NCBI GenBank assembly: GCA_013203595.1
Contig: JABMNT010000237.1
Location: forward strand, 1 to 52,331
Length of the DNA stretch: 52,331 nucleotides
Origin: Rhodospirillales bacterium
GTDB lineage: Bacteria; Pseudomonadota; Alphaproteobacteria; Rhodospirillales; Casp-alpha2
Direction: 5' to 3'
How positions within the stretch are numbered: the stretch's first letter is position 1; every line of letters begins with the position of its first letter. The notes beneath the pieces were generated by a model. That model saw nothing but the letters and a program-made list of their open reading frames with translations. It did no database searches and was not told where the DNA came from. Below are positions 3,943-22,744 of the stretch, one piece after another. Both the position numbers and the translations under genes were made by a program.

Positions 3943-3951
3943 GGTTATTTC

Positions 3952-5007: not shown

Positions 5008-5671
5008 ATTTAAGGCCTTTGTCTTGCAGCCGTGCACGCATGCCGTAGATATCGAGGCCCAGTTCGCCGGCTGCCAGCCGCTTGCGGGTATCGGCTTCCG
5101 AGGCTTCGCGGGCCCGTGCCTTTTCCAGAACCACTGCCGCTTCTTCGCGCCGGACCACACAGACCCCGTCATCATCGGCGATGATGATATCGCCGGGATT
5201 GACCAGCTCGTTGGCACAGACGACGGGGGTGTTAACCGAGCCGATGGATTCCTTGACCGTGCCCTGGGCGAAGATCGCTTTCGACCAGACCGGGCATTGC
5301 ATTTCCGTGAGGTCACGGACATCGCGGACACCGGCATCAATGATCAGTCCCATGCCGCCGCGGGCCTTGAGCGAGGTCGCGATCAGATCGCCGAAGTAGC
5401 CGTCTTCGCTGGGCGAGGTCGGCGCCAGCACCAGAATGTCGCCGGCCCTGACCTGTTCAATGGCCACATGCAGCATCCAGTTATCGCCCGGTGGCGCCGA
5501 TATGGTGACCGCTGATGCGCCCAGCCGGGCGCCGGAATAGATCGGCCGCATATAAGACGCCAGCAGTCCCTTGCGGCCCTGGGCCTCGTGCACGGTGGCA
5601 ACCCCACAGACCCCTAAGGCATCAATGAGGGTCTGGTCGGCTCTTTCAATGTTCTGGACAACAACAGGCAT
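5000..5671 (-). CDS. ligK: 4-carboxy-4-hydroxy-2-oxoadipate aldolase / oxaloacetate decarboxylase
   Basis: RraA-fold class II aldolase (223 aa) that cleaves 4-carboxy-4-hydroxy-2-oxoadipate to pyruvate and oxaloacetate, the final step of the pathway; the family also decarboxylates oxaloacetate. The metal/substrate motif [14 protein letters not shown] (about 109-122, with the R116-D117 pair) and [16 protein letters not shown] (about 91-106) are diagnostic. The start overlaps the galB stop by one base (TAATG), and the end overlaps the galD start by 8 nt, so the genes are tightly coupled. The C-terminal helix ([21 protein letters not shown]) is as in LigK/ProA rather than in the RNase E inhibitor RraA. 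Confidence 0.92.
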
Positions 5672-6411
5672 TATAATTCATCCACGGTTCGGGGGTAAAC
5701 AGACTGAAATCCTTCGGCATAGCGGGCATTGCGGCCGCCCGACTGGCCGCCGGAGTTTCGGCGAAAATGATTGCCGCGGTTTTCCGCGACATTGGTATAG
5801 AAATCCCACAAATGCTGCTGACCTTCCATGCACTCGATGGCGGCGCGTTTTTTGTCCCAGACATCGGTAATATCGAGAAACACATCGGGCTTCCATTGCA
5901 TCTGCTCGGTCTGGTGCGGCTCGAACAGATAGAGCTGCGGCGCACCGAGCACTTTCTCGCCCGGATTGTGGCCCCAGGCCTGGGCGATCATCCGGCACTC
6001 CATGGTGATTTCGGTGGCATACATGTGATCCGTGTTATAGGGGTCCCATTGCGAATGGCACATCATGAAGGCGGGCTGGACCTTGCGGATCAAATCGACA
6101 ATCCGGTATTTGCCTTCGCGGTCGATTTCCAGCGGATAGTCGCCGAAATCAAAAAACTGGATATCATGGGCATCCAGGGCTTTCGCCGCCGCTTCCGCTT
6201 CCTTGTGGCGCGCCGCTTTCACTTTTTCGAGCGTCGCGCCTTGTTCTTTCCACAGGCGGGCCGATTCGCCGCGTTCCCCATAGGACAGACAGGCGATGGT
6301 CACGTCGTAGCCTTTTTCCTGATGCAGGGCGATGGCACCCGCCGCGCGCCAGACAAAATCAGCGGCATGCGCGCTGATGACCAGGACCGTTTTGTTATCA
6401 GGCATTGTCAT
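5671..6411 (-). CDS. galB: 4-oxalomesaconate hydratase (GalB, PIG-L/LmbE fold)
   Basis: Zinc-dependent member of the PIG-L/LmbE family (246 aa) that hydrates 4-oxalomesaconate to 4-carboxy-4-hydroxy-2-oxoadipate. The metal-site motif at the N terminus reads [13 protein letters not shown] (H15, D18), followed by SYGERGES (E46) and [12 protein letters not shown] with H129. The AHxADFVWRAGG form separates GalB from sugar-deacetylase relatives, which have HPDD. First gene of the galB-ligK-galD-ligI operon; it starts at ATG 6411, with an alternative Met two codons later. A candidate operator lies about 95-110 nt upstream. The other known 4-oxalomesaconate hydratase (LigJ) is an unrelated amidohydrolase. 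Confidence 0.9.
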
Positions 6412-6504
6412 ATCCTATCGAAGTAAGGGTTGTTTTCGCAGCCATCTTCCAATGGAATCAGCAAAAGTCCAACTTCAATTCGGCCTGATCGTCATAAGAT
6501 TTAC

Positions 6505-6519
6505 CTATAGTCGGTATAG
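6505..6519. promoter_or_regulatory. Inverted repeat upstream of galB
   Basis: CTATA and TATAG arms (6505-6509 and 6515-6519) are separated by five bases (GTCGG). It lies about 95 nt before the galB start in a 168-nt gap between galB and the end of the flavoprotein gene. The shape fits a LysR-type T-N11-A box. This is a site-level inference; no regulator gene adjoins it. Confidence 0.4.
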
Positions 6520-6579
6520 CAGCCTTGCGTGGCAGGTGGCATCGGCAACAGGCCACCGCAGGCCTTGGTGCGGCGCGGT

Positions 6580-8268
6580 TTATTTACCGGCAATATGCAT
6601 GGCGGTCAGATAGCCGAATACCAGGGCAGGCCCCAGCGTAATGCCGGGCCCCGGGTAGCTGCCTGTCATGATCCCCGCCATATCATTTCCGCAGGCATAA
6701 AGCCCCTCGATCGGTTTGCCGTGCCGGCCAATCACCTGGCCGTCTTTGGTGGTGTTCAGGCCGGCGGCGGTTCCCAGATCACCGGGGTAAATCTGTACCG
6801 CGTAATAGGGGGCCGTTTCGAGGGGCCGCATACAGGGGTTGGGCTGGTGGTTGGGGTCGCCGGTATAGGCATGATAGGCATTGCTGCCCCGCCCGAACTG
6901 GGTATCGACGCCAGCCAGAGAGTCCCGGTTATAGACGGCGACGGTGTCGGTTAACCCTTGCGGATCGACGCCGATTTTTGATGCCAGTTCGTCAAGGCTG
7001 TCGGCGGCGGTGACATAGCCGGTCTTCAGATGGTGCCTGAGGCCGATGTTGCGGGGTTTGACCGCGCCCAGTCCATATTCCCAAAGCGAGCGGCTGTCAC
7101 AGATCAGATAGCTGGTGATCGACGGGCGGTTGCGATAGGCCAGGAACATGCCCTGGACGAAGTCATGATAGGAATTGGATTCGTTGGTGAAGCGTTCGCC
7201 CTTGTCATTGATCGCCATGAACCCCGGCTTGCCCCGGTCGGTGACCGTATGGGGATATACCGCCGGGGTGCCATCTTCGCGGACAAACCGCGATACCGGG
7301 GCCCAATAGGCATTGTTGCCGTCTTCGGGCACGGCTCCGCCTGCGGACTGCCCCAGTTTCAGACCGTCACCGGTTGATCCGGGTGCGGTGGCGGAATAGG
7401 GGCTGGCCTGCGCCGGCAGATAGTCCCGGCGCATATCCGGGTTGTGGGGAAAGCCGCCGGTTGCCAGGATCACGCCGCGCCGCGCGTGAATGGTTTTCAT
7501 GCCGTCCTTTGTTTTCAGCTTTACCCCGGTCACCCTTGCATTATCGAACAGCAGTTCATGCACGGTGGTTTCCAGCTGGATGGCAACGTCGCGCTTTTGC
7601 AAAGAGCGGAGCAGGCGGGCGGCCAGGGCATTGCCCAGCACCAGACGGGTTCCCCGGTGATGGCTCAGGCGCTGGATGAAATAACGCAGGGTCAGCCAGG
7701 CAACGCGCAGGGTCGCCGGTACGGACTTGAAGACCTTGCGGAAATGAACCAGGTCGGCGCGGGCGATCATCATACCGCCGAACAGGGTGAACTCCGGTAA
7801 CGGCGGGCGCAGCCGCTTGAAATCAGCTCCCAGTTCCCTGGCATCAAAGGCCAGCGGTTCCATCACCCGGCCCGAGGTCGATGCGCCGGGTGCCTGCGGA
7901 TAATAATCAGGATAGAAGGCCAGCGGTGTCAGCTTCACCTCGCTGTTCGCGTCCAGATACCTGATCGCTTCGGGACCGCGTTCGAGAAAGTAGGCGCGCC
8001 TGTCGGCACCGGTTTCACTGCCGGCGACGGCCTGCAGATAGCTACCGGCTTTTGCCAGCGTGTCATCCGAGCTGACCTCCTGGCTTTTATGGCTGTTGGG
8101 CACCCAGCACATGCCGCCGGAATAAGACGTGGTGCCGCCGATATAGGCGGTCTTTTCAACCAGCAGGGTCTTCAGGCCCTGCGCTGCAGCCACGCAGGCC
8201 GCGGTCATGCCTGCGGCGCCGGCGCCGAGGACAATCACGTCATAGTCGGTATCCAGCTGGCTGTTCAT
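6580..8268 (-). CDS. FAD-dependent oxidoreductase, KstD/fumarate-reductase flavoprotein family
   Basis: Flavoprotein (562 aa) of the group containing 3-ketosteroid delta-1-dehydrogenases and soluble fumarate reductases. The dinucleotide-binding motif VIVLGAGAAGMTAACVAA is at residues 11-28, the EKTAYIGGTTSYSGGMCWVPNS block follows, and the C-terminal FAD motif is YACGNDMAGIMTGSYPGPGITLG. The Tyr/Gly pair expected at the KstD active site is seen in PYYAVQIYPGDLGTAAGL, so a dehydrogenase acting on a ring ketone or acid is plausible. It overlaps the upstream GntR gene by 4 nt (ATGA), so regulator and enzyme are co-translated. It is a paralogue of the 581-residue flavoprotein at 29082. Substrate unknown; a steroid role is not supported by context. 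Confidence 0.85.
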   Translation of the reverse strand: MNSQLDTDYDVIVLGAGAAGMTAACVAAAQGLKTLLVEKTAYIGGTTSYSGGMCWVPNSHKSQEVSSDDTLAKAGSYLQAVAGSETGADRRAYFLERGPEAIRYLDANSEVKLTPLAFYPDYYPQAPGASTSGRVMEPLAFDARELGADFKRLRPPLPEFTLFGGMMIARADLVHFRKVFKSVPATLRVAWLTLRYFIQRLSHHRGTRLVLGNALAARLLRSLQKRDVAIQLETTVHELLFDNARVTGVKLKTKDGMKTIHARRGVILATGGFPHNPDMRRDYLPAQASPYSATAPGSTGDGLKLGQSAGGAVPEDGNNAYWAPVSRFVREDGTPAVYPHTVTDRGKPGFMAINDKGERFTNESNSYHDFVQGMFLAYRNRPSITSYLICDSRSLWEYGLGAVKPRNIGLRHHLKTGYVTAADSLDELASKIGVDPQGLTDTVAVYNRDSLAGVDTQFGRGSNAYHAYTGDPNHQPNPCMRPLETAPYYAVQIYPGDLGTAAGLNTTKDGQVIGRHGKPIEGLYACGNDMAGIMTGSYPGPGITLGPALVFGYLTAMHIAGK

Positions 8269-8957
8269 TGCTTTGGATCCAGGGCTTCCGATGCGGAAGC
8301 GGTGGCGCGTATGTCACGATTAAACATCAAGGTCAGGCGCGCCTTATGGGAGCCCCGGATATGGGTGCGGGCAATTTTTTCCGCAGCCTGACTGTCGCGC
8401 CGTTCGATGGCCCCGACAATCTCCTCGTGCTCGGAGATGGCTTGTTTGGCCCTTTCATTGACCGCCAGTGAGGTGGGGCCAAGCAGTGCCATTGATTCTT
8501 CCAGTGCGCTCAGGGCCTGGAGAATATAGCGGTTATGGGCAGCCCGGTGGATGGATTGGTGAAACAGTTTGTTGGTTTGGGCCAGACGGTTGACGTCGGA
8601 CAGGGACTTTGCGTCCTCGGCGACAATGTCCTTCATGACAGAAATTTCCGCATCCGTTGCGTGTTTGGCGGCGAGAGCGGCGGCAGTGCCTTCCAGCACC
8701 TCGCGCATGACGTAAAGCTCGGTGACTTCCTGATGCCCAAGCGTCGGTACGACCATGCCCCGATAGGGCTGGTGCTGGAGCAGGCCCTGGGTTTCAAGCC
8801 GGCTCAGGGCTTCGCGGACCGGGGTCCGGCTGATCCCGAACTTTTCCGCCAGTTTGGCCTCGGTAACCCGGTCGCCCGGCTGCAGATCACCACTGATCAG
8901 CATTTCGTAGATGGACTGATAAATATCCATTCCCGTGGTTTTGCGATGATGTGTCAT
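8265..8957 (-). CDS. GntR family transcriptional regulator, FCD subgroup
   Basis: DNA-binding repressor/activator of 230 aa, with an N-terminal winged helix (ISGDLQPGDRVTEAKLAEKF, then GISRTPVREALSRLETQGLL, about residues 20-60) and a C-terminal all-helical FCD ligand-binding domain. The start MTHHRKTTG at 8957 is preferred; the open frame extends to 9053, but those residues are hydrophobic and unlike the family, and the frame would run into the operator. The gene lies between the flavoprotein (coupled downstream) and a divergent catabolic operon, with a palindrome at 9031-9056. It most likely controls both directions and itself. Effectors of FCD regulators are usually carboxylic acids from the controlled pathway. 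Confidence 0.9.
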   Translation of the reverse strand: MTHHRKTTGMDIYQSIYEMLISGDLQPGDRVTEAKLAEKFGISRTPVREALSRLETQGLLQHQPYRGMVVPTLGHQEVTELYVMREVLEGTAAALAAKHATDAEISVMKDIVAEDAKSLSDVNRLAQTNKLFHQSIHRAAHNRYILQALSALEESMALLGPTSLAVNERAKQAISEHEEIVGAIERRDSQAAEKIARTHIRGSHKARLTLMFNRDIRATASASEALDPKQ

Positions 8958-9030
8958 AAATGCACTATCCTGTGGCGCCTGGTTTGGTGGTAAAATCAAC
9001 GGTAAAAATAAATCAATAGCACGCTTGAAA

Positions 9031-9056
9031 ATATTGTATACATATGAATACAATAT
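9031..9056. promoter_or_regulatory. 26-bp near-perfect palindrome, probable GntR operator
   Basis: The arms ATATTGTAT (9031-9039) and ATACAATAT (9048-9056) are exact complements and the centre CATATG is itself palindromic; only the single base on each side of the centre mismatches. TTGTATACAA-like sequences are the usual target of FCD-type GntR regulators. It lies 74 nt before the GntR start (minus) and about 120 nt before the ThDP gene start (plus), in an AT-rich promoter region. Confidence 0.75.
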
Positions 9057-9174: not shown

Positions 9175-10962
9175 ATGAAGAAGCGCACAGGCGGCGACTT
9201 GATAGCCGAGTTTTTGGTGGAAGAGGAAATTCCCTATGTTTTCGGGATTTGTGGGCATGGCAACGTCGGCCTGCTGGATTCGCTTTATGATGTGAAAGAC
9301 AAGGTCAGGCTGGTCTCGCCGCGTCATGAGCAGACGGCGGCGCATATGGCGGACGGGTTTTTTCGTGTCAGTCACAAACCGGCCGCGACCCTGACCTCGA
9401 CCGGTCCCGGTTCGGCCAACCTGATTATGGGCCTGGCCGTCGCCCAGACCGATTCGTCGGCGATTTATTCGATCACCGCCAATGTGCCTACCTCGCAGTT
9501 TAACCGGGGACCGTTCCAGGAACTGAACCGCCATCACCAGGCTGATTTCAACAATGTGATCAAGCCGGTAGTCAAAAGAAGTTTTCAGCCAACCCGGGTC
9601 GAGATGCTGCCGCTGGCCATGCGCCAGGCCGCAGCGACCATGACCAGCGGTCGGCCCGGCCCGGTAAATCTCGACGTTCCCTATAATCTGTTCATGGAAG
9701 AGGCCGACGAAAGCCTGAAGCTGGAACCGGCCTGGAAGGGATTCCTGTCGCGTCGCAGCGGAGCCAGCGAGGACGACGTTGCCAAGGCAACGGACTCGCT
9801 GCTGGCGGCCGAACGTCCGGTCCTGTTCATCGGCCACGGGGTCACCCTGTCCGAGGCATCGGCCGAACTGACGGCGCTTGTCAAACGGCTTTCCATCCCT
9901 GTCATCAGCTCGCCCAATGGCATGGGTTGCCTGCCCATGGGCGATGACCTGTCGCTCGGTTTTATCGGTCGCAACGGCGCCTATCCGGCCAACCAGGCCG
10001 GTCGCCATGCGGACCTGGTGATGGCTATCGGGGCGCGCTTCGATGACCGGTCCTCGTCGTCGTGGATGCCCGGTTATTCGTGGAATTTCCCCCATACCAA
10101 GCTTATTCATGTGGATGTTGATAACGACGAGATTGGCCGCAACTATGCCCCGGACCAGGGAATCCTGGCTGATGCCAAAGCCTTTCTTATCCAGATCCTG
10201 TCCGAACTGGACCGCCGCAATATCGATGCGACGCCGCGTTTGCCATCCTGGCAGAGTGACATCGCCGGATGGCGGGCGGAATGGCAGGCCTTCATCAAGC
10301 CGGGGTTCGAGACGCACAGTTCGCCGATTCGTCCCGAGCGCATTGTTGCAGACTGCCGGGCGGTGTTGCCGGACAATGCAATCATCTCGCTCGATTCAGG
10401 CATCCATCACAACTGGTTCATGCAGTTCTGGGAAGCCCGCCAGCCGCAAACCATGCTCAATACCTGGGGCTATTCCGGTATGGGCTTTGGCCCCAGTTCC
10501 ATATTGGGGGCCAAGCTGGCGGCCCCGGACCGGCCCTGTGTTTCGATTTGCGGAGACGGTGGTTTTACCATGGTGCCGCACGTTCTCTGTACGGCCGTGG
10601 AATATGACATCGCCGTGGTCTGGGTGGTCTGGAACAATTTCGCCTGGGCGGCGATCCGCGATCTGCAATATGCCTATTTTGACGGGCGCGAGATCGGCAC
10701 CGCGTTTTACAGAGGCGAGCAAAAAGAGCCTTACAACCCGGATTTTGCCCTGTGGGCGAAAGCCGCCGGTGTCGCCTCCTATACGGTTACCCGGTCGCAG
10801 GATTTTGCCGATGTCCTGAAACAGGCCGTGCAATTGAACAAGCCGGCACTTATCGATGTTCATGTTGATGCCGATATCCGCCCACCGGGCACAGGTGCCT
10901 GGTCATTGCCGCCGATCCCGCCCAAAGAACCGATTTTTGGCGGGCCGTGGCGTCCGGAATAA
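9175..10962 (+). CDS. Thiamine-diphosphate-dependent enzyme, acetolactate synthase-like
   Basis: ThDP enzyme of 595 aa with the three-domain layout of acetolactate synthase, glyoxylate carboligase and related decarboxylases. The activating Glu is in RHEQTAAHMADGFFR (about residue 50). The ThDP/Mg motif begins SICGDGGFTMVPHVLCTAVE and closes at the NNFAWAAIRD block. It joins or decarboxylates a 2-oxo acid. A GTG at 9163 would add four residues, but the ATG at 9175 is preferred (GGTGG about 8 nt upstream). First gene of the nine-gene operon to 17360; the GntR operator lies upstream. No ALS small subunit is nearby, arguing against branched-chain amino acid synthesis. Exact substrate unknown. Confidence 0.85.
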   Translation: MKKRTGGDLIAEFLVEEEIPYVFGICGHGNVGLLDSLYDVKDKVRLVSPRHEQTAAHMADGFFRVSHKPAATLTSTGPGSANLIMGLAVAQTDSSAIYSITANVPTSQFNRGPFQELNRHHQADFNNVIKPVVKRSFQPTRVEMLPLAMRQAAATMTSGRPGPVNLDVPYNLFMEEADESLKLEPAWKGFLSRRSGASEDDVAKATDSLLAAERPVLFIGHGVTLSEASAELTALVKRLSIPVISSPNGMGCLPMGDDLSLGFIGRNGAYPANQAGRHADLVMAIGARFDDRSSSSWMPGYSWNFPHTKLIHVDVDNDEIGRNYAPDQGILADAKAFLIQILSELDRRNIDATPRLPSWQSDIAGWRAEWQAFIKPGFETHSSPIRPERIVADCRAVLPDNAIISLDSGIHHNWFMQFWEARQPQTMLNTWGYSGMGFGPSSILGAKLAAPDRPCVSICGDGGFTMVPHVLCTAVEYDIAVVWVVWNNFAWAAIRDLQYAYFDGREIGTAFYRGEQKEPYNPDFALWAKAAGVASYTVTRSQDFADVLKQAVQLNKPALIDVHVDADIRPPGTGAWSLPPIPPKEPIFGGPWRPE

Positions 10963-10987
10963 ATCTATAAATCAGGGAGAGAAAATC

Positions 10988-11356
10988 ATGTCCGAGACTT
11001 ACAAAGCAAGCATACGCAATATTGCCGAAGAGCCCTGGCAGCAGTTTCCCGGGCATTTTGGCGGTGCCCTGTCGAAAGCCCTGGTCGGGCCGCAGACAAC
11101 CGGATCCCGGCAACTGGACTACCGCATATCCACTTACCAGCCGATGGCCTATGTGGAACTGCATTCGCACAAGGTGCAGGAGCAGGTTTATCATGTGCTG
11201 GACGGCGAAGGGCTGATGGAAATTGACGGCGAGAAAACCGTAGTTCGCAAGCATGACGTGATCTTCCTGCCGCCAGGGGTGCCGCATTCCATTGCCAATT
11301 CGGGCCTGACAGACCTGACCTTCATCGTGGTTACAACACCGATTGAAGACAAATAG
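10988..11356 (+). CDS. Cupin-domain protein
   Basis: Single-domain cupin of 122 aa. The first cupin motif has ELHSHKVQEQVYHVLDGEG with likely metal ligands H59, H61 and E65; the second is FLPPGVPHSIANSG with H100. Such small cupins act as metal-dependent isomerases, epimerases or dioxygenases on small acids, or as sugar-acid-binding helpers. The start is supported by AGGGAGAG upstream; the open frame extends further left only inside the preceding gene. It sits 25 nt after the ThDP gene and 37 nt before an SDR, clearly in the same operon. Confidence 0.85.
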   Translation: MSETYKASIRNIAEEPWQQFPGHFGGALSKALVGPQTTGSRQLDYRISTYQPMAYVELHSHKVQEQVYHVLDGEGLMEIDGEKTVVRKHDVIFLPPGVPHSIANSGLTDLTFIVVTTPIEDK

Positions 11357-11393
11357 ACAGCAACGTGACCAGTAAAAAGAAAAGGGGAGCAGT

Positions 11394-12104
11394 GTGAGCA
11401 AGAAAGTGGCTTTGGTATTTGGAGGATCGCGGGGGATTGGCGCGGCTTGTGTAAAGGCCCTGACCGACGCCGGGTTCGATCTGGCCTATACCTATGTGAG
11501 TAATCCACCTGCAACGGCGACGCCAGGGGTGAAAGCCTATGCGGCGGATATCCGTGACCTGGATGCGGTCGCCCGGGTGTTTGCCGATGTGGAAAAAGAT
11601 TTCGGTGCGGCCCCCACCTGTGTGGTTGCCAATGCCGGGATCAACGTGGCGCCGGGTCCGATTACCGGTTTTGATCCGGACGACTTCCGCAAGCTGGTTG
11701 ACGTCAATATTGTCGGTGCCTTCAATATTCTGACGGAAGCCGGCAAACGGGTCCCTGACGGCGGCACGATCATTGCCATCACCACATCCATGGTCCGCTT
11801 CGCACCACCCAATGGCGGCGCCTACACGGCGACCAAAGCCGCCGTTGAGTCCATGGTCCGCGCCATGTCGAAGGAACTGGCCAGCCGCCAGGTCCGGGTC
11901 AATGCGGTTGCCCCGGGGCCGGTTGATACGGACCTGTTCAGAATTGGCAAAAGCGATGAGGTGATTGCCAAAATGGCATCCTTCAGCCCGCTCAACAGAA
12001 TTGCCGATCCTTCGGAAATCGCCGAAGTGGTTAGTTTTCTGGCATCCGAAAAATCATCCTGGGTGCTGGGCCAGGTTGTGCAGCCGAACGGGGGCATGGT
12101 CTGA
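11394..12104 (+). CDS. Short-chain dehydrogenase/reductase (copy 1 of 2)
   Basis: Classical SDR of 236 aa that moves hydride between NAD(P)H and an alcohol/ketone. The cofactor motif GGSRGIG is at residues 10-16, NAG at 80-82, and the catalytic set is N105, S132, Y144 and K148. It starts at GTG (11394) behind an AAAGGGGAG ribosome site. A gap-free paralogue of the same length lies at 22745 (about 70% identical by hand count). Its stop overlaps the upstream ATG option of the next gene. The substrate is probably an oxo or hydroxy acid of the operon's pathway; FabG-like annotation would be generic only. Confidence 0.88.
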   Translation: MSKKVALVFGGSRGIGAACVKALTDAGFDLAYTYVSNPPATATPGVKAYAADIRDLDAVARVFADVEKDFGAAPTCVVANAGINVAPGPITGFDPDDFRKLVDVNIVGAFNILTEAGKRVPDGGTIIAITTSMVRFAPPNGGAYTATKAAVESMVRAMSKELASRQVRVNAVAPGPVDTDLFRIGKSDEVIAKMASFSPLNRIADPSEIAEVVSFLASEKSSWVLGQVVQPNGGMV

Positions 12105-12130
12105 TGGGTGGAACTGCCGAGGAGACGGAA

Positions 12131-12643
12131 ATGACCGAAACAAACTGGTCAAAGCAGCTATTGGAAACCTTCGTGGACGCCGGGGTGACGCTGTTTCCCT
12201 ATGTGCCGGACGCCGGCAACAAGCGGCTGATCGAGCATGTAAATGAAAAAAATGGAATCACATCCGTTCTGCTGACAACGGAAGAGGAAGGTATTGCCGT
12301 CGCCGCAGGTGCCGATCTGGTCGGCGGCAAGGCAGTGGTCTGCATGCAGTCTTCGGGGGTCGGCAACATTCCCAACTTCCTGTCTTTTGTTAAAGGCGGG
12401 CGCTTTCCGGTGCTGATGATGGTTACCATGCGCGGTGACTATGGCGAGGAAAACCCCTGGCAGTATCCCATGGGCCAGGCCGTGGAACCGATCCTGACGG
12501 CCATGGGGGTGCAGGTGATGAAGGTGGACAGTCTTGAAGAGCTAATGCCGGCAGCGCGGGCGGCCCTGTCGGCGGTTTTTGTCGCCGGCACATCCGTTGC
12601 CCTTGTCCTTACCCAGCGCTTTCTGGGCGCCAAGAAATTTTGA
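12131..12643 (+). CDS. Sulfopyruvate/phosphonopyruvate decarboxylase-like alpha subunit
   Basis: Pyrimidine-binding half (170 aa) of a split ThDP decarboxylase of the ComD/phosphonopyruvate-decarboxylase type. The activating Glu lies in LLTTEEEGIAVAAGADLVGG, followed by VVCMQSSGVGNIPNFLSF, both typical of this group. The ATG at 12131 has a good GGAG site six bases upstream; an ATG at 12104 (TGATG overlap with the SDR stop) would add nine residues. The beta half follows 14 nt downstream. In characterised members the enzyme decarboxylates sulfopyruvate or phosphonopyruvate to an aldehyde; here no sulfonate or phosphonate genes are nearby, so the substrate is probably another 2-oxo acid. Confidence 0.85.
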   Translation: MTETNWSKQLLETFVDAGVTLFPYVPDAGNKRLIEHVNEKNGITSVLLTTEEEGIAVAAGADLVGGKAVVCMQSSGVGNIPNFLSFVKGGRFPVLMMVTMRGDYGEENPWQYPMGQAVEPILTAMGVQVMKVDSLEELMPAARAALSAVFVAGTSVALVLTQRFLGAKKF

Positions 12644-12657
12644 CGGGAGTTAATGAA

Positions 12658-13248
12658 ATGGCGCAAATTACCCTGGACCGGCGTGAGGTTCTTGCAAAAA
12701 TATTCCCAGACCCTGACAGTTATCTGTTCATATCGGGTTTGGCCGGATCATCACGCGATGCGGCGGGCCTGACCAAGGACGGAGCGCATCTTTATTCCAT
12801 GGCAGGTGCCATGGGAGCAGCCGCGTCAACCGGACTTGGTGTCGCCATGGCGGCGGCGGATCGCAAGGTTGCGGTGATCACCGGCGACGGGGAACTGCTG
12901 ATGAATGTCGGCTCCCTGGCGACCATCGCCACCATCGGCCCCGGCAATCTTTCGATTGTCTGTATTGATAACGGCTGCCACGGTGAAACCGGTGGACAGA
13001 CCGGCCATACGTCGAACAGGACCGACCTGGCGATGATGGCGAAGGGTGCCGGAATTTCATCAATCATGACCGTTGCAACAGCCAGTGATCTGGAAGCGGT
13101 TGCAGGATTTCTGGCCGAGACGCCGGGTCCGCATTTTGTGCTGGTCAAGGTCAAGGACGGGCCGCCGACCGTATACAGGCGCAACCTGGATTTGGCCGAG
13201 TGCCGTATTCGGTTCCGCAATGGCTTTCAGCAATCGAGCCCGGCTTGA
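12658..13248 (+). CDS. Sulfopyruvate/phosphonopyruvate decarboxylase-like beta subunit
   Basis: ThDP-diphosphate-binding half (196 aa), partner of the gene just upstream. The motif starts GDGELLMNVGSLATIA and ends with SIVCIDNGCHGETGGQ, giving the GDG...N Mg-ThDP signature. Start MAQITLDRREV at 12658 has GGGAG eight bases upstream; an in-frame TTG at 12640 is less likely. Together the two halves form one active site across the subunit interface, in the cytoplasm. The product would be an aldehyde, which the aldehyde dehydrogenase at 23565 could oxidise. Confidence 0.85.
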   Translation: MAQITLDRREVLAKIFPDPDSYLFISGLAGSSRDAAGLTKDGAHLYSMAGAMGAAASTGLGVAMAAADRKVAVITGDGELLMNVGSLATIATIGPGNLSIVCIDNGCHGETGGQTGHTSNRTDLAMMAKGAGISSIMTVATASDLEAVAGFLAETPGPHFVLVKVKDGPPTVYRRNLDLAECRIRFRNGFQQSSPA

Positions 13249-13272
13249 GTTTGGAATTAAGGTGACATCAAG

Positions 13273-13956
13273 GTGACAGATAAATCCGGACCCCACGGTA
13301 TCCTGGCGATTTGGCACGACATGGTTGCCGACCATGAGCAGGCTGTGAACAACTGGTACAACCATGAACATCACTCAGAAAGGCTGGGTATCCCCGGCTT
13401 TCATTCGGCCCGTCGCCATCGGGCGCTGGCCGGCGAACCCGGCTATTTTGTGTTCTATGAAACCGATGATCCTTCCGTTCTGGAATCCCGGGCCTATCTG
13501 GACCGGGTCGACAATCCGTCGCCGTTAACCCGGTTGATGATGCCCCATTACCGCCATACCAGCCGTCTGGTCTGCGAGCGCGCACAGCGGTTTGGCGATG
13601 GCCATGGCGGGTTCGTGCAGACCATGCGCTGTGTCGGCGAAGATTTTGCCGGGCCTGCGGCGGCGCAAGGCCTTGCCGCCCGGGCCGAGGCGGCGCTTGC
13701 AGAGCCCGGGATTGTCAGTGTCGAGATCTGGAATCTTGATCCGTTGCGCACTGGTGTTCCGACAAAGGAGAAGAAAATTCGCGGTGAGCCGGATCAGATG
13801 GCGGACGGGGTCATCATGGTTAGCGGCAACGATGCGGCACAGGTCACGGCTGCGGGACAAAAGCATTTTGATCCCGCGGCTTTACAGACCGACCGCCTGG
13901 TTCAGGGACCGCCCGACAGCGGTCTGTATCAACTGATCTTCACCATGGGGGGCTAG
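13273..13956 (+). CDS. EthD/ferredoxin-fold-like protein of unknown function
   Basis: A 227-residue cytoplasmic protein that starts with GTG (13273; AAGG just upstream). It opens with GILAIWHDMVADHEQAVNNW and NHEHHSERLGIPGFHSARRH, a pattern like the dimeric alpha-beta-barrel (EthD/DUF4286-like) proteins, where W/Y-NxEH-xERL marks a small-molecule pocket. A second such half seems to begin near residue 110 (GGFVQTMRC) and ends at the C terminus (LYQLIFTMGG). Members are often linked to catabolic operons with no proven role. It lies 24 nt after the decarboxylase beta gene and 4 nt before the epimerase. Confidence 0.65.
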   Translation: MTDKSGPHGILAIWHDMVADHEQAVNNWYNHEHHSERLGIPGFHSARRHRALAGEPGYFVFYETDDPSVLESRAYLDRVDNPSPLTRLMMPHYRHTSRLVCERAQRFGDGHGGFVQTMRCVGEDFAGPAAAQGLAARAEAALAEPGIVSVEIWNLDPLRTGVPTKEKKIRGEPDQMADGVIMVSGNDAAQVTAAGQKHFDPAALQTDRLVQGPPDSGLYQLIFTMGG

Positions 13957-13960
13957 GCGC

Positions 13961-14923
13961 ATGAGCCGACACATACTGGTTACCGGCGCCTCCGGTTTTA
14001 TCGGGCTGGCCCTGTGCAAGGCACTGGCTGGCCGTGGCGACCGGGTTACCGCGCTTGATATGCACATCGGTTCAGGTTTAAGCCAGTTGGCAGAGGCCAA
14101 CAAAGCGGTTGTCCCCCGGATCTGTGAAATTACCGAGTGGTCGTCTCTGGTCGAGATCATCAAGCAATCACCACCCGACGGGATCATCCATTGTGCGGCC
14201 ATTGTTGGCGTTCTTGCCTCCGTGCAGGCACCGTTGCGCACCATGCAGGTCAATGTGGAAGGATCGATTAATCTGTTTGAAGCGGCCCGCCTGTTCGACG
14301 TCAAACGGATCATCCACATGAGTTCCGAAGAAACCTATGGTCATTTTCAAGAGCCGGCCATTGATGAAAGCCATGCCCAGAACCCGCTCATGCCCTATGG
14401 CATTTCCAAGCTGACGGTCGAACATCTGGCGCGCAGTTATCAGGCCATGTACGGCACCGAAATTACCCATATGCGGACCTGCTGGGTGTATGGGCCGGGA
14501 CTGCCGCGGCAACGTGTTCCCAAGATTTTTGTCGATGCCGCCGTCCATGGAACCGCCTGCCATCTGCCCTGGGGGGCCGACATGGTTGTTGACCATACCT
14601 ATATTGATGATGTTGTTGACGGGGTTCTGCTGGCCCTGGATCAGACCTCCTGCCCGCACGACGCCTATAATCTGGGAAGCGGTGCGGCGACCCGGTTGGC
14701 GGACATGGTCGATATTGTTAAGGAACTGGTGCCCGGCGCCGACATTTCGGCCGGTCCGGGTGAGTATGCACACGGATTTGCCAACGGCTCGGCGCTTGCC
14801 GTCAGAAAAGGCGCGCTGATAGTCGAGAGGGCGCGCAGGGATCTGGGTTATGTGCCAAAGTTCACCATGAAGAGCGGGCTCGCCGCCTATATTGAAGCCA
14901 CACGAAAATCCGGGGATCTTTGA
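13961..14923 (+). CDS. NAD-dependent epimerase/dehydratase family protein
   Basis: Extended SDR of 320 aa. The Rossmann motif VTGASGFIGLALCKAL is at residues 5-20; the active site is marked by MSSEETYG (about 119-126) and YGISK (Tyr/Lys about 143-147), and substrate-side blocks include CWVYGPGLPRQRVPK and DHTYIDDVVDGVLLAL. The family handles nucleotide sugars or, in catabolic operons, hydroxy-acid or lactone intermediates. It starts 4 nt after the preceding stop and its own stop touches the tcuA-like ATG, so it is inside the operon. No glycosyltransferases are near, so a catabolic substrate is more likely than cell-wall sugar. Confidence 0.82.
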   Translation: MSRHILVTGASGFIGLALCKALAGRGDRVTALDMHIGSGLSQLAEANKAVVPRICEITEWSSLVEIIKQSPPDGIIHCAAIVGVLASVQAPLRTMQVNVEGSINLFEAARLFDVKRIIHMSSEETYGHFQEPAIDESHAQNPLMPYGISKLTVEHLARSYQAMYGTEITHMRTCWVYGPGLPRQRVPKIFVDAAVHGTACHLPWGADMVVDHTYIDDVVDGVLLALDQTSCPHDAYNLGSGAATRLADMVDIVKELVPGADISAGPGEYAHGFANGSALAVRKGALIVERARRDLGYVPKFTMKSGLAAYIEATRKSGDL

Positions 14924-16315
14924 ATGGCCATTAACTCACATAGCTATGACGTGGTCATCATCGGTGGCGGTAACGCCGGGCTTTGCGCCGCCATGACGGC
15001 TGCTGAAACCGGTGCCAAGGTCGCGGTTCTGGAAGGAGCACCCATCCATTTCCGGGGCGGCAACTCCCGTCACACCCGCAATTTCCGTTGTATGCATCAG
15101 GGGCCCGTATCGGTGCTGACCGAAGCTTACGGGGAGGCCGAGTATTTCGACGATCTGATGAAAGTCACCGGGGGTAAAACCGATGAGCGACTAGCGCGTA
15201 TGGTCATCCGCAACTCAGAAGAATGCCTGCCGTGGATGCAGGCGCACGGGGTGCGGTTTCAGCCGTCGCTGACCGGTACCCTGTCGCTGTCGCGGACCAA
15301 CGCTTTTTTTCTGGGCGGCGGCAAGGCGCTGATGAATGCCTATTACCTGACTGCCCAGCAGTTGGGTGTGGATGTTTATTACGAGGCTTCGGTCACCCAT
15401 CTGCGCCTCGACGGCGATCATGTGGCGGCGGTTGAGGTCAGTTACGAAGGCAAGACCGAAGTGGTTGCCGCCAAATCCTTTGTTGTCGCCGCTGGTGGTT
15501 TCCAGAGTGATCTTGACTGGCTGGCTGATGCCTGGGGACCGGCAGCCCGTAATTTCCTGATCCGCGGCACGCCTTATAACAAAGGGGTGGTCCTGCGCGA
15601 TCTGCTTGACCAGGGCGCGAAATCGGTTGGCGATCCGACCCAGTGCCATGCGGTTGCCATCGATGGCCGTTCACCCAAATTCGACGGCGGTATTGTCACC
15701 CGTCTGGACTGTGTTCCGTTTTCCGTTGTTGTCAATAAAAGCGCTGAGCGGTTTTATGATGAAGGCGAGGATGTCTGGCCCAAGCGCTACGCGATCTGGG
15801 GCCGACTGGTCGCGGCACAACCGGACCAGATCGCCTATTCGATTATTGATTCGAAATCGCTTGAGCTGTTTATGCCGTCGGTGTTTCCGCCCCTTGTCGC
15901 CGACACGATCGGCGAACTGGCGCTCATGCTGGGTTTGCCGGCTCAGCAGTTGCAAGCAACCATCGACGCCTTCAATGGCGCCTGCCGGGACGGCAACTTT
16001 CACCCGACCACCCTTGATGGGCTGGCCACCGAAGGCCTTGATCCGCCAAAAACCAACTGGGCACGGCCGATTGATCAGCCGCCGTTCTACGGCTATAGCC
16101 TGCGGCCGGGAGTGACCTTTACCTATCTGGGCCTTGATGTGGATGAAAATGCCCAGATTCAGGGCGCCAACGGTCCGATCCGCAATTTATGGGCGGCTGG
16201 CGAGACCATGGCGGGCTCCATACTGGGGCAGGGATATCTGGCCGGGTTCGGGATGACCATTGGCACGGTGTTCGGCCGTATTGCCGGGCGGGAGGCTGCA
16301 GCACATGTCCATTGA
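14924..16315 (+). CDS. tcuA: FAD-dependent tricarballylate dehydrogenase-like protein (TcuA type)
   Basis: Flavoprotein of 463 aa, the usual TcuA length. FAD motif VVIIGGGNAGLCAAMTAAE at about 10-28; RGGNSRHTRNFRCMH is the TcuA-specific block after the second strand; C-terminal GETMAGSILGQGYLAGFGMTIG binds FAD. TcuA oxidises tricarballylate to cis-aconitate and passes electrons to TcuB. It directly abuts the epimerase stop and overlaps tcuB by 11 nt. TcuC (transporter) and TcuR are absent here, and the surrounding genes differ from the Salmonella tcu operon, so the substrate may be a different polycarboxylate. Confidence 0.85.
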   Translation: MAINSHSYDVVIIGGGNAGLCAAMTAAETGAKVAVLEGAPIHFRGGNSRHTRNFRCMHQGPVSVLTEAYGEAEYFDDLMKVTGGKTDERLARMVIRNSEECLPWMQAHGVRFQPSLTGTLSLSRTNAFFLGGGKALMNAYYLTAQQLGVDVYYEASVTHLRLDGDHVAAVEVSYEGKTEVVAAKSFVVAAGGFQSDLDWLADAWGPAARNFLIRGTPYNKGVVLRDLLDQGAKSVGDPTQCHAVAIDGRSPKFDGGIVTRLDCVPFSVVVNKSAERFYDEGEDVWPKRYAIWGRLVAAQPDQIAYSIIDSKSLELFMPSVFPPLVADTIGELALMLGLPAQQLQATIDAFNGACRDGNFHPTTLDGLATEGLDPPKTNWARPIDQPPFYGYSLRPGVTFTYLGLDVDENAQIQGANGPIRNLWAAGETMAGSILGQGYLAGFGMTIGTVFGRIAGREAAAHVH

Positions 16316-17360
16316 GACTCTTGAAGAAGCCCGCCGCCAGGTAAATATCTGCAATGCCTGCCGCTACTGCGAAGGCTATTGTTCGGTGTTCCCGGCGATT
16401 AACGCCAAGCGCCAGTTCAGCGATGGTGACATCACCCAGCTGGCCAACCTCTGCCATGGCTGCCGCGGCTGTTTTTACGCCTGCCAGTATACGGAACCCC
16501 ATGAGTTTGCCATTAATCTGCCGCGCATCCTGGACGAAGTGCGTCAGGACAGCTGGCAGGAGATGGTTTACCCGAAGACCTTCGCCCGGTCTTTCCATCG
16601 ACACGGCGTTGCCATTGCACTGGCCCTGATCGCCGGCATCGGCTTTCTGATCTGGGCCATGAAGACTTATGGCGGATCTGGCGGCGACGGCTTTTATGCC
16701 CTGATGTCACATAATGTCATGGTCGCGTTGTTCCTGCCGGCCTTTCTGTTGCCGTTCGCCCTGATCGCAGCCAGCTTGCGCAGTTACTGGCGCAGGGTCG
16801 ACGGGCAACCGGTTAAATGGGCCCAGGTCCGTGCCGCCTTTGCCTCTGCCGCGGCCATGAAAAACCTGTCCGGCGGCCACGGCGACGGCTGTAATTTCGA
16901 GGAAAAGGAGCGCTTCACGCGCTTGCGCAAACATCTTCATCACGCCACCATGTACGGGTTTCTGCTGTGTTTTGCGGCAACCAGTGTGGCGACCCTGATG
17001 CATTATGTGTTTGATATGCCAGCCCCCTACGGGCCCTTCGATCTGCCTAAATTGCTGGGTGTTCCCGGCGGCATACTGCTCAGCCTCGGCACCCTGGGCC
17101 TGGCTGCACTGAAGCTGAAAGCGGATAAGGATTTATCCGACCGCCGGGTCTGGGGTGGCGAAATGGCCTTTGTTCTGCTGCTGTTTTTCGTCAGCACCAG
17201 CGGCCTGGCGCTTTATTATTTCGGTCAGTCGGTCTGGCTGGCGGAACTTCTGGCGGTCCATCTGGGCAGCGTTTTCGCGTTTTTCCTGCTGACCCCCTAT
17301 ACCAAGATGGTTCACGGCTTTTTCCGGCTGGCGGCGCTGGTCCGCGACGCCCAGCGGTAG
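16305..17360 (+). CDS. tcuB: Tricarballylate utilisation 4Fe-4S membrane protein (TcuB type)
   Basis: Iron-sulfur membrane protein (351 aa) that takes electrons from the TcuA flavin and gives them to the quinone pool. Two cysteine sets at the N terminus, C16-C19-C22-C26 and C50-C53-C56-C60, fit two [4Fe-4S] clusters; about six membrane helices follow with conserved His residues (for example HLHHATMYG and HLGSVF), which could hold haem b. Start MSIETLEEARRQ at 16305 with GGAGG nine bases upstream. Last gene of the operon; a gap of more than 500 nt follows with no obvious terminator. Confidence 0.88.
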   Translation: MSIETLEEARRQVNICNACRYCEGYCSVFPAINAKRQFSDGDITQLANLCHGCRGCFYACQYTEPHEFAINLPRILDEVRQDSWQEMVYPKTFARSFHRHGVAIALALIAGIGFLIWAMKTYGGSGGDGFYALMSHNVMVALFLPAFLLPFALIAASLRSYWRRVDGQPVKWAQVRAAFASAAAMKNLSGGHGDGCNFEEKERFTRLRKHLHHATMYGFLLCFAATSVATLMHYVFDMPAPYGPFDLPKLLGVPGGILLSLGTLGLAALKLKADKDLSDRRVWGGEMAFVLLLFFVSTSGLALYYFGQSVWLAELLAVHLGSVFAFFLLTPYTKMVHGFFRLAALVRDAQR

Positions 17361-17899: not shown

Positions 17900-19180
17900 A
17901 TGAAAAAGTTCACTTCGAATTCTATTCTCAATGCAAAACCGATAAGCCGCAGGAATGTCCTGAAAGCCGGGGCAGGGGCCGCCGCTGTCGGTGCCGGCGC
18001 CACCTTTGGATTCCCCGGTATCCTGAAGGCGCAAACAGGGGCAATCAAGATTGGCCACCTGACCCCGATGACCGGGTTTCTTGGTGGACTGGGTGAATGG
18101 GCGGTGCTCGGCATTCAGATGGCCGCCGAGGAAATAAATGCCAACGGCGGTGTGCTTGGTCGCAAGCTGGAAGTCAATTCAGAGGATTCAATCAATCCAA
18201 ATACAGCGGCAACCAAGGCCCAGCGTATTCTGGAGCGCGATGGTGCGGATCTGCTGATGGGAGAGATCAGTTCGGCTTCAGCGCTGGCCATTTCCCAGGT
18301 TGCGGAACGCAATAAAAAACTGTTCATGGCCCTTGGCCCGCGCTCCGACACCCTGCGCGGCAAAAACTGTAACAAGTATATGTTCTGCACCGACATTCCG
18401 AACACGGTGATGGTCAATGCGGTCGGCGGTGCGCTGTTGCGCGATGGGCTGGTGAAGGGCAAGAAATTCCACACCCTGACCGCTGATTATATTTTTGGCC
18501 ATGACCTGCTGCGCGCGGCGAAGGCCTTTTTCTCGGCGAATGATGCATCTCTGGTTGGTGATGAACTGATCGCAACCGATGTAACCGATTTCAGTCCCTA
18601 TTTGCTGAAGATACGCCAGGCCCAGCCGGACATCGTCTGTCTCAACCTTGCCGGTAACCAGGTGACCAATTTCGTCAAGCAGTATGCCGAATTCGGGCTG
18701 CCCTATCCGACGGTCGGTTTTAATCTGAATACCTCCGATGCCTGGGCCGCCGGTCCGGGTAACCTGAGTGGCACCTGGCCGACGGTCTGGTACCACACAC
18801 TGAACACCCCGGGCACCCAGGAGTTCGTCGCCAATTTCACCAAGAAATACGGAAAACCGCCTGAAAACCATGCCTGGATCGAGTATGTGTCACTGAAATT
18901 AATGGCCCGGGCAATGGCTGAAACTCAGTCAACCGACACCCATGACCTGATCAAGTATTTCGAGAGCGGTGCCAAGTTTGATATTCTCAAGGGCCGCGAA
19001 GCCTATTTCCGGGCGTCCGATCACCAATTGATCCAGGAAGCCTATCCATTCTCGGTTAAGGAAGCATCGAAAGCCAAGGACCAATGGGACCTGATGGATC
19101 TGGGGCCAGCCATTCCCGGTGATAACGAGCCTCTGGAAAGTATTTATCCAACGCCGGAACAAAGTGGCTGCTCCCTATAG
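17900..19180 (+). CDS. Branched-chain-amino-acid-type ABC transporter substrate-binding protein (Tat signal)
   Basis: Periplasmic binding protein (426 aa) of the LivJ-like type I fold. It has a twin-arginine signal: SRRNVLKAG with R17-R18, a hydrophobic alanine/glycine run, and a likely cut after LKA at about residue 43. Mature part begins AIKIGHLTPMTGFLGGLGEW, the standard first strand of the family. GGGAGAAG before the ATG supports the start. First gene of an importer operon with the permease and fused permease/ATPase genes; a hairpin follows it. LivJ-like proteins in such catabolic regions often bind aromatic or carboxylic acids rather than amino acids, so the ligand is open. Confidence 0.9.
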   Translation: MKKFTSNSILNAKPISRRNVLKAGAGAAAVGAGATFGFPGILKAQTGAIKIGHLTPMTGFLGGLGEWAVLGIQMAAEEINANGGVLGRKLEVNSEDSINPNTAATKAQRILERDGADLLMGEISSASALAISQVAERNKKLFMALGPRSDTLRGKNCNKYMFCTDIPNTVMVNAVGGALLRDGLVKGKKFHTLTADYIFGHDLLRAAKAFFSANDASLVGDELIATDVTDFSPYLLKIRQAQPDIVCLNLAGNQVTNFVKQYAEFGLPYPTVGFNLNTSDAWAAGPGNLSGTWPTVWYHTLNTPGTQEFVANFTKKYGKPPENHAWIEYVSLKLMARAMAETQSTDTHDLIKYFESGAKFDILKGREAYFRASDHQLIQEAYPFSVKEASKAKDQWDLMDLGPAIPGDNEPLESIYPTPEQSGCSL

Positions 19181-19233
19181 CCGATAAGTGAACACAACAT
19201 AAGATCTCACTGCCGTTTCGCGTTGTATAAATT

Positions 19234-19269
19234 GTTGGTGCCTCATGACTGAGGCACCAACACCTTTTT
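19234..19269 (+). terminator. Hairpin between binding-protein and permease genes
   Basis: A perfect 12-bp stem, GTTGGTGCCTCA (19234-19245) and TGAGGCACCAAC (19250-19261), with a four-base loop and a following CCTTTTTG. It lies between the binding protein and its permease, 14 nt before the permease start. It probably acts as a partial terminator or mRNA 3'-end stabiliser, so that the binding protein is made in excess. Confidence 0.8.
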
Positions 19270-19282
19270 GATTTTAGATTAA

Positions 19283-20158
19283 ATGCAAATCGTCTTTCTT
19301 ATTGAACAAATTGTAAACGGTCTGGTGCTTGGCGGGTACTACCTGCTGATTGCGCTGGGTCTGTCGCTGATTTTCAGTGTCGGCGGGATCGTTAACCTGT
19401 CGCATGGGGCGTTTTATGCGGTTGGCGCTTATATCTCTGTCGAGGTTACCAAATATCTCGGCTTCGTTCCGGCGGTTGTTGTCACACCCGTCGCCGTCGG
19501 GATTCTGGGTATATTTTTCGAACGCCATATCCTGCGCCGGTTTTATGCCGCTGATCCGATACTGAGTCTGCTTGTGACCTTCGGGTTTGCGATGATTGGC
19601 GAGCAGCTATTGCGCATCATCTGGGGCGCTGCACCGATACCGGCGTCCATGCCGAGTATGCTCAAGGGCCCGGTTATTATCGGCGATTTCCTGTTTTCCC
19701 AGTATCGATTGCTGTTGCTTGCCGTGGTTGCCGTGGTTCTGGCCGGCATCTGGTATCTTCTCAACAAGACTTCCTTTGGCCGCGTCGTGCGCGCCGGAAT
19801 TCAGCAACCGGATATGGTCGCCGCCCTGGGCATCCGCCTGAAACCCTATATGACGTCTGTGGTTATACTTGGTGTCGGCATGGCAGGCCTGGGCGGGGCC
19901 CTGTTTGCGCCCATATCCGTCGTTCATCCGGCGATGGGGGTTGAAATCATGGCCGTTGCCTTTGTGGTTGTCATTATCGGCGGGCTGGGCAGTTTTTGGG
20001 GGGTTGTTCTGGCCGCCCTGCTGGTCGGTGTTGTGCGGGGTGTGACCATCCATTTTGTGCCGGCGGCAGGCGAAGCCTCCATGTATGTGCTGATGTTTGC
20101 TGTGCTGCTGGCCCGACCGCGCGGCCTGCTGGGTGAGCGTATTGAGAAGTTTGAATAA
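19283..20158 (+). CDS. LivH-type ABC transporter permease
   Basis: Inner-membrane permease (291 aa) with about eight hydrophobic helices. It opens with the typical LivH sequence QIVNGLVLGGYYLLIALGLS and has NLSHGAFYAVGAYISVEV, then GVVLAALLVGVVRGV, as in the family. It forms the channel together with the permease domain of the 844-residue protein encoded next. Its TAA overlaps the next ATG by one base (TAATG), so the two are coupled. No clear ribosome site precedes the ATG, though the hairpin just upstream could affect translation. Confidence 0.9.
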   Translation: MQIVFLIEQIVNGLVLGGYYLLIALGLSLIFSVGGIVNLSHGAFYAVGAYISVEVTKYLGFVPAVVVTPVAVGILGIFFERHILRRFYAADPILSLLVTFGFAMIGEQLLRIIWGAAPIPASMPSMLKGPVIIGDFLFSQYRLLLLAVVAVVLAGIWYLLNKTSFGRVVRAGIQQPDMVAALGIRLKPYMTSVVILGVGMAGLGGALFAPISVVHPAMGVEIMAVAFVVVIIGGLGSFWGVVLAALLVGVVRGVTIHFVPAAGEASMYVLMFAVLLARPRGLLGERIEKFE

Positions 20159-22692: not shown

Positions 22693-22744
22693 GCCTTGTG
22701 ACTGATTATAGACCCTTACAACCCTGTAAATCTGGAGAATTAAA

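Follow-up and report, generated by a model that had tools for sequence, protein, structure and literature searches.

A locus at about positions 3073–30827 of a 52,331-nt stretch of Rhodospirillales bacterium DNA (assembly GCA_013203595.1, contig JABMNT010000237.1, positions 1 to 52,331 of the forward strand; hereafter the window) was analyzed, one arm of which is a nine-gene operon at 9175–17360. Tentatively, with a chance that approaches an even one, the locus would serve growth on a hydroxylated, carboxylated six-membered carbon ring, a hydroaromatic acid of quinate/shikimate type. The evidence consists of the gene content, the recurrence of the gene set in other genomes, the linkage of the tricarballylate-type redox proteins TcuA and TcuB (TcuAB) to the set, an active-site loop of the type found in IolD (3D-(3,5/4)-trihydroxycyclohexane-1,2-dione hydrolase, the ThDP-dependent ring-opening enzyme of inositol catabolism), and the assignment to known families of the enzymes for 4-oxalomesaconate (OMA) and 4-carboxy-4-hydroxy-2-oxoadipate (CHA). 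Central to this reading is the first operon gene, which encodes a 595-aa thiamine diphosphate (ThDP) enzyme of the acetolactate synthase (ALS) fold (ThDPA, 9175–10962, plus strand), a proposed cyclic vicinal-dione hydrolase. The chance that ThDPA opens a ring hydrolytically is somewhat better than even, and that of a carboxylated ring being the substrate is a little below this. No description of the gene set was found in the open-access PMC literature (subscription papers and preprints being outside the search), and the set recurs in several alpha- and betaproteobacterial genera, so the view of an initial annotation of the window, that this is an undescribed catabolic gene set, was borne out.

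The loop at the ThDP site of ThDPA carries the argument for ring opening. ALS and BbmA have a PGG loop at this place, whereas the window ThDPA has CGHGN, that is, CGHG instead of PGG and a GHGN motif in common with IolD. A GHG(N/T) loop was found in all 21 IolD proteins above the family cut-off, vs. one of 50 other TPP_N enzymes (30 loci returned by search, mostly ALS, plus 20 hand-picked for variety), and that single protein is itself a 36% relative of ThDPA. Among the ThDPA orthologues the loop was invariable: 83 of 83 proteins with an intact N-terminus carry it, 77 as GHGN and 6 as GHGT, in a count of 86 proteins (80 related loci plus six plasmid stretches) from which three shortened ones (L067, L074, and L009) were omitted. 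A part of PMC9430895 gives the substrate of IolD as a cyclic 1,2-dione and describes the roles of the Iol enzymes in myo-inositol catabolism. The IolD-type loop therefore points to opening of a carbocycle, with polycarboxylates arising downstream, and not to the cleavage of an open-chain branched polycarboxylate by ThDP enzymes that the initial annotation had proposed. Since the host genome encodes a separate IolD, ThDPA is not just the enzyme of the inositol pathway; it is only 28% identical to IolD and scores far under the IolD cut-off.

The proposed steps resemble myo-inositol catabolism (IolG, IolE, IolD, IolB, and IolA) in having a dehydrogenase, an AP2-type dehydratase, a ThDP-dependent ring hydrolase, an isomerase, and an aldehyde dehydrogenase (ALDH). 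They differ from it in that neither a kinase IolC nor an aldolase IolJ was recognised, while TcuAB, Liv- and Tct-type transporters, and the OMA/CHA enzymes stand in their place. Another known system is cyclohexane-1,2-dione hydrolase (CDH), for which a part of PMC12247030 describes ThDP-dependent C–C cleavage of cyclohexane-1,2-dione and an H28A/N484A variant that acts as a carboligase coupling pyruvate with ketones. The reaction proposed for ThDPA would likewise cleave a C–C bond of a cyclic 1,2-dione. Against CDH, ThDPA reaches 144 bits, far less than against ALS or BbmA, and CDH was not among the top matches of a search with an N-terminal query. ThDPA has a His28 inside its GHGN loop; this residue and Asn487/488 of ThDPA may be counterparts of His28 and Asn484 of CDH (PDB 2pgn).

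In the plasmid pUSP3 of Aminobacter sp. MSH1 (L010, 7162–9654), a second ThDP paralogue, 50% identical to ThDPA and also carrying the GHGN loop, has the EthD-like gene directly behind it, and only a few genes separate it from a true ThDPA orthologue. The presence of two GHG-loop enzymes within a single cluster hints that there are two ring substrates, or else two steps.

Related loci were collected by a scan of genome contigs as the best 80 (64–87% identity to ThDPA) of 284 relatives. They include near-duplicates, e.g., L064/L065 and L066/L069, and because only 40 of the 80 have 8 kb or more on each side of ThDPA, the presence counts are lower bounds. Neighbour matches were dropped when below 60 bits, below 40% coverage, or below identity limits set per family, and most neighbours were compared only with a reference set made for this analysis. 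ThDPA was taken as the anchor, because the ‘EthD-like’ protein of the operon, tried in this role, was dropped when its loci in the host's own family proved to be without the rest of the set.

The small metal-type cupin encoded behind ThDPA (10988–11356, plus strand) was the most frequent companion, present anywhere in the stretch in 61 of the 80 loci; in 41 of them its gene follows ThDPA in the same orientation and starts no more than 300 nt after it. KSTD-like FAD dehydrogenases (32/80), IclR regulators (31/80), and AP2-type isomerases (18/80) were found as well. The NAD-dependent extended short-chain dehydrogenase/reductase (SDR) labelled ‘epimerase’ recurred in 18 loci, either of the two window SDRs in 14, and each of the three parts of the Liv-type transporter in 17, while TcuB was present in 17 loci, TcuA in 16, and both together in 14. 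LysR (13/80), ‘EthD-like’ (9/80), GntR (5/80), TctA-type carboxylate transporter (5/80), LigI (2/80; L102 and L030), and GalD (1/80; L102) genes were less frequent. The ALDH gene outside the operon (23565–25109, minus strand), which the initial annotation had assigned to the same pathway, does belong to the set, as it is present in 17/80 loci and recurs with TcuAB, ThDPA, cupin, SDR, and ‘epimerase’. In Methylobacterium nodulans one stretch holds ALDH, ThDPA, transporter, isomerase, cupin, ‘epimerase’, SDR, KSTD-like, GntR, TcuA, and TcuB genes. Further, ThDPA orthologues of 62–73% identity reside on plasmids of Rhizobium, Antarctobacter, Neorhizobium, Methylobacterium, Aminobacter, and Ponticoccus, where different portions of the set accompany them.

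None of the related loci examined had the exact nine-gene order, and ComD/ComE, the two halves of a split 2-oxoacid decarboxylase in the operon, matched in none of the 80, even when thresholds were lifted (E up to 1e-10), so the nine genes are not supported as the conserved unit. The remaining genes belong to a set that recurs in rearranged form. The nine-gene order appears to be local, and the set does not. Within the host family, ThDPA at the set limit was detected only in the host's genus, in two of three congeners.

At two related loci, L049 (327–1562) and L052 (880–2256), ThDPA is preceded by genes for a flavin monooxygenase-like protein and an EamA transporter, and no cupin match was found, hinting at a different substrate there. 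The records of L045 and L049 are titled as metagenome-assembled genomes of Bordetella parapertussis and Klebsiella pneumoniae, respectively, and look like mislabelled bins.

Co-occurrence was then quantified in an even sample of 289 evenly drawn alphaproteobacterial genomes including the host, with statistics on the 288 others; the TcuA, LigK, and ThDPA scans gave scores, per genome, for the best few first-look candidates only. With the host included, ThDPA was detected in 8 genomes, TcuA in 20, LigK in 18, and a ComD homologue in 58. TcuA was present in 4 of 7 ThDPA genomes vs. 15 of 281 others (p = 4e-4), and in two of these four (G183 and G227) it is no more than about 10 kb away from ThDPA. 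The cupin was present at all seven even-sample ThDPA loci, four of which (L165, L167, L170, and L171) come from genomes already among the 80. ComD homologues (39–50% identity) were found in 7 of 7 ThDPA genomes vs. 50 of 281 others (p = 9e-6), while ComDE stood beside ThDPA at none of the seven loci. The coupling of ComDE to the pathway assumed in the initial annotation is hence favoured at the level of genomes and not as adjacency to ThDPA elsewhere. The company that ComD homologues keep with ThDPA across genomes is compatible with an unlinked decarboxylation step in other genomes, and it makes ComDE look less foreign to the pathway. None of the five nearest ComD homologues had ThDPA nearby, and one of them was accompanied by a 35% relative of TcuA. 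In G203 the ComD homologue is about 54 kb from ThDPA on the same contig, and the host genome holds a second ComD-like stretch (contig C89, 34979–35491; 44% identity) whose search alignment contains a single in-frame stop.

Several observations weigh against a hydroaromatic substrate opened by ThDPA. By family models ThDPA scores higher as ALS (TIGR00118, 382 bits; cut-off 538.35) than as IolD (TIGR04377, 251 bits; cut-off 715), and is under both cut-offs. A fold comparison of its predicted model (predicted local distance difference test, pLDDT, 76) ranks acetohydroxyacid synthase first; it re-finds the ALS superfamily and cannot discriminate within it, and CDH was outside the 50 matches compared, which excludes nothing. 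The CHA aldolase LigK accompanies ThDPA in only one of the 80 loci (L102) and was not enriched in the even sample, being present in 1 of 7 ThDPA genomes vs. 16 of 281 (p = 0.35). An unrelated control, IolD, was itself enriched, in 3 of 5 ThDPA genomes vs. 15 of 136 (p = 0.015, in a draw of 142 genomes that we assume to be each family's first), so the genome-level counts partly reflect a broad catabolism, and physical linkage weighs more. In the congener G017 (87% identity, taken as the same contig as L025) a GMC oxidoreductase gene and a sugar-type binding protein gene are upstream of ThDPA, and no cupin match was found. The host also possesses a LigAB-like dioxygenase pair, on another contig (C67) outside the window, so the LigI, GalD, GalB, and LigK of the window may serve ordinary protocatechuate 4,5-cleavage. 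Finally, the dehydroquinase (DHQase)-like protein beside ThDPA in L058 is without the His and the Arg found at the aligned places of two solved enzymes.

Genes for such DHQase-like proteins stand beside ThDPA in 4 of the 80 loci and also on two Roseobacteraceae plasmids (L058, 14469–14930; L036, 6975–7406; L038, 8206–8649; L061, 12606–13055; L009, 3195–3662; L024, 22800–23267). The two altered residues correspond to the His of NPxxxTH and the Arg of FRxHS, which we take to be the catalytic residues of type II DHQases, while a REPxxYG loop is retained in the L058 protein; the other five sequences resemble it, as judged by eye only. Because His and Arg are replaced in L058, this protein probably acts on a related compound and not on dehydroquinate, and the group may perhaps consist of lyases of another specificity. 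The canonical quinate pathway was rejected as an explanation on account of the altered L058 protein.

The ALS-like fold and best family score of ThDPA are among the arguments for the scheme of the initial annotation, in which TcuAB would oxidise a branched polycarboxylate with an open chain, and ThDP decarboxylases would, after rearrangement, cleave it to an aldehyde for the ALDH, ThDPA being an ALS-like lyase or decarboxylase. The closeness of TcuAB to ThDPA in 14 loci, the enrichment of TcuA in ThDPA genomes, the ComD homologues in all seven of them, and the TctA-type transporters in five loci would also suit this scheme. Yet the GHGN loop is one that ThDPA shares with IolD and not with ALS, the KSTD-like enzymes, AP2-type isomerases, and DHQase-like proteins beside ThDPA suit a ring better, and ComDE is beside ThDPA nowhere else, with the unrelated IolD marker also enriched at the genome level. 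An open-chain substrate is considered unlikely. As for chance, the nine-gene order might be a fortuitous assembly of modules for separate substrates (ThDPA–cupin, SDR–epimerase, ComDE, and TcuAB), in keeping with its absence from the congeners as far as their contigs reach and with ComDE being apart from ThDPA elsewhere. However, ThDPA, cupin, ‘epimerase’, SDR, ALDH, TcuAB, and the ATP-binding cassette (ABC) transporter recur together in rearranged orders, and two of the seven even-sample genomes have TcuA about 10 kb or less from ThDPA, which makes mere chance a quite improbable explanation.

The minus-strand genes at 3073–9053, which face the operon, were not part of the initial annotation, nor were the downstream transporter and second SDR at 17900–23455. 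Together the minus-strand genes encode the complete OMA/CHA lower pathway, with GalD and LigK identified by cut-off and GalB and LigI by solved relatives: the 2-pyrone-4,6-dicarboxylate (PDC) hydrolase LigI (3073–3942; 358 bits to PDB 4d8l), the OMA tautomerase GalD (3952–4980; NF033377, 527 bits, cut-off 440), the CHA aldolase LigK/GalC (5000–5671; TIGR02798, 372 bits, cut-off 304.5), and the OMA hydratase GalB (5671–6411; 312 bits to PDB 5cgz). LigK is the sole copy above the cut-off in the host genome. All four enzymes are those of the lower pathway of protocatechuate 4,5-cleavage and gallate degradation; different from that pathway, the genes here face a ThDP operon, and the LigAB-like pair is on contig C67. 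On that contig (L112, 6495–7722) a LigA-like gene, under the cut-off, and a LigB-like class III extradiol dioxygenase gene adjoin nadB. Among 49 hand-picked ThDPA genomes (from 50 loci given, L051 left out), LigK was above the cut-off in 20, vs. 16 of 281 without ThDPA (Fisher p ~8e-10); since these were picked among the 80 nearest relatives, the figure carries a bias from kinship and from genome size. With the even sample at 1 of 7 and not significant, the candidacy of LigK as a general pathway member was weakened.

A conventional aromatic route may be considered for these genes, in which QuiC-like and KSTD-like enzymes aromatise hydroaromatic acids to protocatechuate or gallate, a LigAB encoded elsewhere cleaves the ring, LigI, GalD, GalB, and LigK finish the degradation, and ThDPA has a side role. 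In its favour are a QuiC-like dehydratase in the window, the LigAB-like pair of the host, and the complete OMA/CHA enzymes of the window. A side role would be odd for ThDPA, as ThDPA with the cupin is the most constant part (7/7 even-sample loci; 61/80 related loci), and no ring-cleaving dioxygenase was recognised near ThDPA among neighbours that were mostly compared with our own reference set. We regard the aromatic route as improbable.

For ring opening by ThDPA, a pathway can be proposed in which we infer every reaction, the reaction order, and the substrate. The SDRs, the ‘epimerase’ (a proposed ring-alcohol dehydrogenase), and the KSTD-like FAD enzymes would oxidise the ring as far as a vicinal dione, or the corresponding enediol. 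ThDPA would add ThDP to one carbonyl and hydrolyse the C–C bond to give a ring-opened aldehyde acid, as IolD and CDH do, while the cupin, a proposed tautomerase/isomerase whose tautomerase role is a guess, might act on the substrate or the product. The ALDH, proposed as the oxidant of the ring-opened aldehyde acid, would yield a C7 tricarboxylate. If a carboxylated cyclohexane dione is opened between adjacent carbonyls at C3–C4 or C4–C5, aldehyde oxidation would give a butane-1,2,4-tricarboxylate, with the carbon skeleton of OMA and CHA, which are substrates of GalD, GalB, and LigK. TcuA-type enzymes dehydrogenate a succinate-like unit, which such a butane-1,2,4-tricarboxylate contains, so that TcuAB could introduce a C=C bond into the C7 tricarboxylate, after which GalD, GalB, and LigK would cut it to pyruvate and oxaloacetate. 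As an alternative in this genome, ComDE might decarboxylate a C7 2-oxo acid, with further oxidation to tricarballylate and conversion by TcuAB to cis-aconitate. The link of the ring-opening product to GalD/GalB/LigK and to TcuA is presumptive, and the full scheme with all its steps is doubtful, with a chance of about one in four. A hydroxylated ring would agree with the neighbours seen in other genomes, namely KSTD-like enzymes, AP2-type isomerases, DHQase-like proteins, and several NAD dehydrogenases.

Beyond this genome, a widespread route of Alpha- and Betaproteobacteria may be envisaged, in which oxidation turns a carboxylated carbocycle into a vicinal dione, which a ThDP enzyme opens hydrolytically and which is then fed into the OMA/CHA pathway or, through TcuAB, into the tricarboxylic acid cycle, bypassing the oxygen-dependent dioxygenases that cleave rings; we consider this rather doubtful at present. 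Its substrates would be hydroaromatic acids and possibly gadusol- or mycosporine-type rings too. If true, a large group of enzymes that score as ALS-like would be ring-opening hydrolases, ring acids derived from plants and algae would gain a catabolic exit free of oxygenases, and TcuAB would be placed inside a ring-degradation pathway.

The operon itself consists of nine intact plus-strand tandem frames with gaps of -11 to 37 nt and a third-codon-position GC content (GC3) of 0.63–0.72, confirming the close spacing described initially. Coordinates are given with chosen starts, and an alternative GTG at 9163 is possible for ThDPA. Pfam families in the operon are TPP_enzyme N/M/C, Cupin_2, adh_short_C2, TPP_N alone, TPP_C alone, Epimerase, and FAD_binding_2, and by Pfam or NCBIfam eight of the nine family names assigned earlier hold, the ‘EthD-like’ one being the exception. 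The cupins that were compared have the HxH, E, and H positions of the metal-cupin motif, and the window cupin belongs to Cupin_2. The cupin gene is followed by that of an SDR (11394–12104; adh_short_C2), which is 71% identical to the second SDR of the window (22745–23455, plus strand). The ComD-like alpha half of the split decarboxylase (12131–12643; TPP_N alone) and the ComE-like beta half (12658–13248; TPP_C alone) reach 101 bits (TIGR03845, cut-off 147.95) and 126 bits (TIGR03846, cut-off 221.5), respectively, so both are under the NCBIfam cut-offs for sulfopyruvate decarboxylase; they reach only 60 and 105 bits with the phosphonopyruvate decarboxylase model TIGR03297 (cut-off 312.5).

The ‘EthD-like’ protein (13273–13956) had no match at E 0.001 to any family of Pfam or NCBIfam, the curated EthD family included. 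Its predicted structure (pLDDT 91.6) has a tandem ferredoxin-like fold of the dimeric alpha+beta barrel type, with the anthrone-oxidase-like 5f9p as the closest match. Then follow the ‘epimerase’ (13961–14923; Epimerase family), the FAD-containing, tricarballylate-type dehydrogenase TcuA (14924–16315), and TcuB, its membrane Fe–S/quinone partner (16305–17360). TcuA exceeds both of its NCBIfam cut-offs (NF006130, 684 bits vs. 369; TIGR02485, 605 vs. 372.6), and TcuB exceeds that of TIGR02484 (330 bits vs. 246.6) but falls under that of NF011607 (372 vs. 524). According to a title cited in PMC10468695, TcuA converts tricarballylate to cis-aconitate. With these scores the pair resembles TcuA and TcuB of the Salmonella TcuRABC system; different from that system, no TcuC was recognised beside the window TcuAB, which are part of a long catabolic set with other transporters.

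Divergent from ThDPA is a gene for a GntR regulator (8265–9053, minus strand), and next to it on the same strand one for a KSTD-like FAD dehydrogenase (6580–8268), labelled by its best-scoring families (NF009477, 722 bits, cut-off 758); none of the 25 models shown, including those for ketosteroid and 4-oxocyclohexene-carboxylate dehydrogenases, passed its cut-off. A second KSTD-like FAD dehydrogenase (29082–30827, minus strand) is 45% identical to the first. Adjacent to it, the QuiC-like protein (28252–29085, minus strand) corresponds to the N-terminal half of a 3-dehydroshikimate dehydratase (NF042435, 264 bits against a cut-off of 1200 for a 635-position model), and it scores 236 bits to PDB 5hmq, deposited as a 4-hydroxyphenylpyruvate dioxygenase. 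Downstream of the operon, the Liv/Urt-type ABC transporter (17900–22692, plus strand) comprises a binding protein, a permease, and a fused permease–ATPase–ATPase, and beyond the ALDH gene lies one for a LysR regulator (25225–26214, plus strand).

Between these genes, a 354-aa protein (26067–27131, minus strand) matched no NCBIfam model at E 0.001 and no Pfam family at E 1e-5, and a 29% relative of it is encoded near ThDPA in L036 (17538–18155). At 43264–46572 of the window (minus strand), genes for an IlvD/sugar-acid dehydratase-like protein (NF004784, 849 bits, cut-off 539), a PcaD-like hydrolase, and an SDR perhaps form another, separate sugar-acid operon.

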